In this document: positions 31,844 to 32,122 of the stretch, in pieces
Layout of the letters: each line of letters opens with the position of its first letter
Numbering within the stretch: the first letter of the stretch is position 1
Source of the DNA: an uncultured Opitutia bacterium
GTDB lineage: Bacteria > Verrucomicrobiota > Verrucomicrobiia > Opitutales > CAJWYM01
Direction of reading: 5' to 3'
Length of the DNA: 35,033 nucleotides
Assembly: GCA_913049555.1 (NCBI GenBank)
Contig: CAJWYM010000038.1
Location: 1-35,033, forward strand
Position numbers and translations under genes: made by a program
Notes under the pieces: model-generated
Seen by the model: only the letters and a program-made list of their open reading frames with translations
What the model was told of the DNA's origin: nothing
Database searches by the model: none

Positions 31844-31915
31844 TCAATTCAGATTGTAATAGAAAATAAACATAAAAAAAGCGTGGAACCTACCCCTAAG
31901 TTCCACGCTACTCAT
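31844..31915 (-). CDS. Possible 23-residue leader peptide upstream of add
   Basis: ATG 31915 has GGAG six bases upstream, better than most starts here. It encodes MSSVELRGRFHAFFMFIFYY and ends NLN before TGA. The frame crosses the terminator-like hairpin, so a translating ribosome would melt it. It ends 32 bases before the add start. It may be chance. Confidence 0.22.
   Translation of the reverse strand: MSSVELRGRFHAFFMFIFYYNLN
31880..31909 (-). terminator. Rho-independent terminator-like hairpin 1
   Basis: AGCGTGGAAC and GTTCCACGCT form a 10-bp stem, extended by U-G, U-A and A-U to the GGGG loop, with TTTTTT directly after on the minus strand. It is the best intrinsic terminator in the window, yet no known gene ends there; it lies 68 bases upstream of add. 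Confidence 0.6.
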
Positions 31916-31925
31916 TTTCTACTCC

Positions 31926-31969
31926 ATTTAAAGTATAAGACTTACCCCTAAATCTTATACTCTTTAAAT
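31926..31969 (-). repeat. Hairpin 2, architectural copy of hairpin 1
   Basis: AGTATAAGA and TCTTATACT pair (9 bp), continued inward by U-G, two U-A and A-U to GGGG, and outward past a two-base AG bulge by ATTTAA/TTAAAT. No T run follows, so it is not a terminator. It shares loop and closing pairs with hairpin 1 but not stem sequence. Confidence 0.6.
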
Positions 31970-32122
31970 AAATCATTTTTTAATTATATATGCAAGATTT
32001 TATTTAAAAAAATTCTTATAAAAGTTCTTTGTTTTTAAGAGTTCTTTTTAAATTGTAATGTTATTTCTAATTTTTTTAATATAAGCTGTTTTTTCGTAAA
32101 TCAATTCCGCTTCCTAAAAGTT

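Follow-up and report, generated by a model that had tools for sequence, protein, structure and literature searches.

The region upstream of add in contig CAJWYM010000038.1 (assembly GCA_913049555.1) of an uncultured Opitutia bacterium, order Opitutales, phylum Verrucomicrobiota, contains two hairpins with GGGG loops on its minus strand; we refer to the whole 35,033-nucleotide stretch as the window. Judged from comparison of sequences, these hairpins very probably belong to a conserved family of small RNAs (sRNAs). We lean slightly towards the view that the sRNA acts by base pairing, and the joint proposal, a conserved trans-encoded family together with base-pairing action, earns the same narrow preference from us. 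The most specific form of the proposal, in which an order-wide sRNA uses two redundant GGGGUA seeds on C-rich sites other than the Shine-Dalgarno sequence in an order without detectable Hfq or ProQ, we consider evenly balanced. The feature would thus be a trans-encoded sRNA gene of approximately 86-102 nucleotides (nt) on the minus strand, with its own promoter of the sigma-70 type and its own terminator. Comparison shows a family built of two modules, in which each copy has a hairpin on the 5' side, a GGGGUA that is exposed, a linker of the A-rich UAGAAAAU type and a terminator hairpin tipped by UUA-GGGG-UAG.

The paired GGGG hairpins of the minus strand are real and beyond chance. The 115-nt stretch folds with an energy of -38.7 kcal/mol, against a mean of -17 (sd 2.8) in shuffled sequences (z = -7.75), and this energy was reached by none of 200 shuffles. 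In the intergenic region, hairpin 2 is the sole terminator-like site, where 0.1 would be expected. The elements of the predicted RNA, all on the minus strand, are the following:

31962-31949, GGGG 31948-31945, 31944-31931, minus strand: hairpin 1, 14 pairs in the fold, whose loop displays motif 1, UUUAGGGGUAAG
31910-31930, minus strand: A-rich single-stranded linker containing GGAGUAGAAAAUGA, of the type kept in relatives
31909-31897, GGGG 31896-31893, 31892-31880, minus strand: hairpin 2, 13 pairs, whose loop, that of the terminator, carries motif 2, CUUAGGGGUAGG
31874-31879, minus strand: tract of six T, read from the sequence as the end of an intrinsic terminator and the predicted 3' end of the RNA

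The loops of both hairpins have UUA-GGGG-UA in common, and the U-G pair of the stems forms in the minus-strand RNA only. A preliminary description of this DNA had stated the latter, along with the two minus-strand hairpins and the six T after the second, and our fold and coordinates confirm it on these points. It had also placed a TATAAT about 14 bases before hairpin 1, where the distance is in fact about 20 nt (31988-31983), and had taken hairpin 1 as the terminator-like structure; the terminator is hairpin 2, the one nearest add.

The conservation of the RNA was studied with a covariance model, R1, built on its 3' module. This model matched 214 of 373 Opitutales genomes, and 165 of the 231 good-quality genomes among them (about 70%), with one to six copies per genome; the copies are single, multiple or tandem, are dispersed through the Opitutales, and in several tandem pairs lie about 170-530 bp from each other. 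A phylum-wide sample gave matches in 41 of 338 genomes, every one of them in Opitutales. Many of the listed Opitutales genomes without a match are small, at about 1 Mb. The contigs that carry the RNA include those of Cerasicoccus maritimus, of a metagenome-assembled genome (MAG) of Puniceicoccaceae, and of several Opitutales MAGs, all in Verrucomicrobiota. A covariance search of related genomes had been suggested earlier as a check on the two-hairpin structure; run with the 3'-module model, it showed this module to be order-wide, while the looped form of motif 1 is confined to the genome of the window. Pattern matches in contigs of Micrarchaeota, Omnitrophota and Saprospiraceae were set aside as chance, since none has the flanking stem, and ten pattern matches in viral contigs showed no hairpin on inspection.

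Some members of the family depart from the common layout. In three loci from one Opitutales family (L091, L097 and L102), a variable extra hairpin, for example TCCTAGCGTTTACGCTAGGT, lies between motif 1 and the linker. Two tandem sister copies (L060:1228-1274 and L076:1219-1263) have a degenerate linker, AGTTA..GAGTGG, and the one at L060 has lost the canonical GGGGTAA of motif 1. Sub-functionalised or decaying sister copies may therefore exist.

In 60 distinct copies, aligned by fitting to the covariance model, 99.4% of the cells of the terminator stem are paired, double changes occur in 11 of its 13 pairs, and covariation scores 0.543, compared to 0.158 in shuffles. An unfitted alignment of ten sequences was 100% paired, with double changes in 8 of 13 pairs. 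Unlike this covarying stem, UUAGGGGUA is nearly invariant, and so is the terminator tip UUA-GGGG-UA, in which the U-G wobble is retained in 53 of the 60 rows with no drift to a Watson-Crick pair. On these alignments, selection acts on pairing in the outer stem and on sequence in the tip; the retained wobble and the near-invariant tip suggest that the sequence itself is read. The 5' hairpin varies in sequence. In the relatives examined, it ends 0-7 nt before GGGGUAA, which leaves motif 1 largely unpaired as a single-stranded GGGGUAAC; this hairpin has a GNRA-like or CUA-type loop and 43 distinct stems in 60 copies, with several pair types per position, although its pair counts are supporting evidence only, since the search was designed to find a stem. 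The genome of the window is the only one in which motif 1 lies inside a hairpin loop and resembles motif 2, so the two matching GGGG hairpins represent, by this comparison, a derived variant of a more general design. Because motif 1 is preserved both single-stranded and looped, it would be the GGGGUA sequence, and not the shape of a hairpin, that is under selection. Motif 1 is single-stranded in all relatives examined, which weakens the earlier idea of a dimeric protein that binds the paired GGGG loops as a structure.

In another explanation, the GGGG tracts of two molecules assemble into an intermolecular G-quadruplex, and dimerisation is what is functional. Each molecule would, by its sequence, expose two of the four tracts needed. 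However, the flanking UUA and UA are conserved about as strongly as the Gs themselves, and motif 1 has AGGG or GUGG in a few family members, so we consider a quadruplex very unlikely.

The promoter signals of the window were assigned by eye and are, on the minus strand:

31990-31995, minus strand: -35-like TTGCAT, also found in copy C6 of the same genome
31967-31972, minus strand: -10-like TTTATT, 17 nt after TTGCAT, with a predicted start near 31960
31983-31988, minus strand: TATAAT, an alternative -10 element, with a predicted start near 31976

The TTGCAT/TTTATT pair recurs with the identical 17-nt spacing in copy C6, and the position of TATAAT is not conserved in the other copies. TTGCAT-17-TTTATT is the best-supported candidate promoter pair in the window; the predicted RNA is about 86 nt long from TTTATT and would be about 102 nt if TATAAT is used. 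When 61 non-redundant upstream sequences of the family were aligned on the first GGGG, TTG[AC] formed a peak at a distance of 61-70 nt upstream (two 5-nt bins hold 32 counts, where about 5.7 are expected). This positioned consensus signal points to a promoter of its own, as expected of a trans-encoded sRNA. The distance from TTG[AC] to the first GGGG is shorter in the copies of the window's genome than the family peak.

Three further complete copies are present in the same genome, all of them beside unrelated genes, which we named by eye from their translations:

Copy C6: close to a PhoH-like gene and a gene for a membrane protein
Copy C94: downstream of a sulfatase-like gene
Copy C17: between galT-like and recC-like genes

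The four copies have the linker, the motif tips and the layout in common and differ in the sequences of their stems. The intergenic position, the terminator of its own and the unlinked copies with differing neighbours are those of a trans-encoded sRNA. One of the two readings in the preliminary description, a separate RNA roughly 100 nt long, is strongly supported by the dispersed complete copies, the -35-like signal, the covarying terminator and the order-wide conservation. The RNA also appears to be non-coding: a candidate ATG that follows GGAG does not keep its frame from one paralogue to another, as a one-base difference shifts the candidate open reading frame of C94 and C17 relative to that of C38 and C6. 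A small peptide (GGAG...ATG) was thus rejected, as the frames differ and many relatives lack the ATG.

Dispersed hairpins could also be a selfish repeat of the REP or MITE type instead of a functional RNA gene, and copies C94 and C17, with a nearly identical element between different flanks, fit such an origin. This explanation has to contend with the low copy number and order-wide presence of the element, and with compensatory changes under asymmetric sequence constraint, an aligned promoter and terminator, and a conserved linker; we regard it as even less probable than a quadruplex.

The other reading in the preliminary description was a leader or attenuator of add-hisC, that is, a cis-acting element that senses a ligand or a protein. 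The location of the element, on the strand of add and ahead of it, and the terminator at its end speak for this possibility, but add does not follow any other copy that was examined, and a strong terminator, hairpin 2, stands about 63 nt upstream of the start codon of add (31811). The neighbours of the copies are unrelated and vary by family in relatives (by eye, one group has a ygfZ-like gene upstream, another an aldose-epimerase-like gene downstream), so that the conserved downstream linkage of a riboswitch or attenuator of add/hisC is missing; no riboswitch in Rfam matched, and the dispersed copies already contradict this explanation. Between the terminator and add there is, moreover, a promoter-like pair seen by eye, TTGACC (31847-31842) and TACTCT (31825-31820) separated by 16 nt, directly before the gene. 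We consider the leader the least probable of the explanations weighed here. The ATG of add lies about 9 nt after the TACTCT -10 element; from this pair of sequences, add is therefore probably transcribed separately, with almost no leader.

With the sRNA gene as the preferred interpretation, the two GGGGUA motifs would, by analogy, be redundant binding sites at which pairing with C-rich (UACCCC-type) RNA begins, and this pairing may alter the translation or the stability of the partner RNAs without Hfq or ProQ. Hfq was found in none of 26 sampled Opitutales genomes and ProQ in none of 23; action would therefore be chaperone-free or use another protein.

The search for targets weighs against base pairing. 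In its own genome, UACCCCUA occurs at 61 sites, 8 of them in the RNA itself, and the other 53 show no evident clustering in 5' untranslated regions or at start codons. Both candidates that were followed up failed conservation tests, and no RNA targets were found: homologues of a rlmD-like gene show that the region of its candidate site is coding, and the candidate site 5' of nrdB is not conserved in orthologues. At the latter locus (L152:760-900, G000:C48), an NrdR-box-like CACAATATATAGTGT upstream of the nrdB-like gene precedes a short inverted repeat, ACCCC...GGGGT; the UACCCC before the start of the gene is the one that orthologues do not conserve.

Because no targets were found, an unknown RNA-binding protein that reads GGGGUA, which would explain the same conservation, remains a serious rival to base pairing. 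The RNA would then be a decoy (sponge) for a protein that recognises single-stranded GGGGUA, in the way that CsrB and RsmZ act on CsrA through other motifs. A short, near-invariant motif that appears twice in each molecule, encoded by multi-copy and tandem genes, is what such a decoy might look like, but two sites per molecule are few and no candidate protein is known. CsrA itself is excluded: it is patchy in the sampled Opitutales, present in 8 of 26 genomes, and has no association with the RNA (5 genomes have both, 3 CsrA only, 11 the RNA only and 7 neither). A CsrA sponge of the CsrB/RsmZ type was accordingly rejected, as the loops are GGGG and not GGA and the two do not co-occur. The preliminary description had called CsrA-like binding a weak fit, and the absence of CsrA from 11 of the 16 sampled RNA-bearing genomes bears this out. 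We judge a sponge possible but rather unlikely.

The comparison with known systems indicates that this is a new sRNA family, whose arrangement is known from others and whose seeds carry the opposite base. In Rfam, nothing relevant matched the whole window at the gathering score or eight canonical copies at E<0.5. The similarity to BTnc231 (RF04180) is far below threshold (29.8 bits for the copy in the window, against a gathering score of 80.4), and this family was not matched by the canonical copies. The paired-hairpin riboswitch Guanidine-II (mini-ykkC) was rejected, with no Rfam match and loops of GGGG instead of ACGR. Searches of open-licence full texts found no description of such an sRNA in Opitutales, nor of trans-acting Opitutales sRNAs. 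By analogy, the arrangement may be described as LhrC-like with the opposite base, a G-for-C mirror of 6C, sX13, LhrC and RepG, whose C-rich loops face G-rich mRNAs. The 6C RNA of Actinobacteria (B11 of mycobacteria) is alike in its length of about 93 nt and in its two stem-loops around conserved single-base runs; however, it belongs to another phylum and has runs of C, whereas the Opitutales RNA has runs of G and a motif 1 that is usually unlooped. Membership in 6C, defined by two hairpins, six or more loop C and the Rfam model, was rejected given the GGGG loops and the lack of an Rfam match. LhrC of Listeria, whose binding to lapB needs no chaperone (PMC4132741), likewise has the same motif in a loop, a single strand and the terminator loop, but its UCCC blocks the Shine-Dalgarno sequence, with which the GGGGUA of the Opitutales RNA cannot pair. 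The sX13 RNA of Xanthomonas, 115 nt long with stable stems and 4C/5C loops, is Hfq-independent (PMC3771888); it differs in having three stems, an unrelated sequence and C-rich loops directed against G-rich mRNAs. In RepG of Helicobacter, the terminator loop pairs with a homopolymeric stretch of an mRNA leader (PMC8295292), although this loop is C/U-rich, the motif is single and the sequence is unrelated. The non-detection of Hfq and ProQ in our sample is compatible with the chaperone-free action described for 6C and sX13.

About 70% of the good-quality Opitutales genomes carry this family, whose seeds are conserved and whose stems drift; it offers an entry to post-transcriptional control without the classic chaperones. 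Chaperone-free sRNAs that act through their loops carry C-rich motifs that cover ribosome-binding sites, and the G-rich seeds of the Opitutales RNA would reverse this rule.
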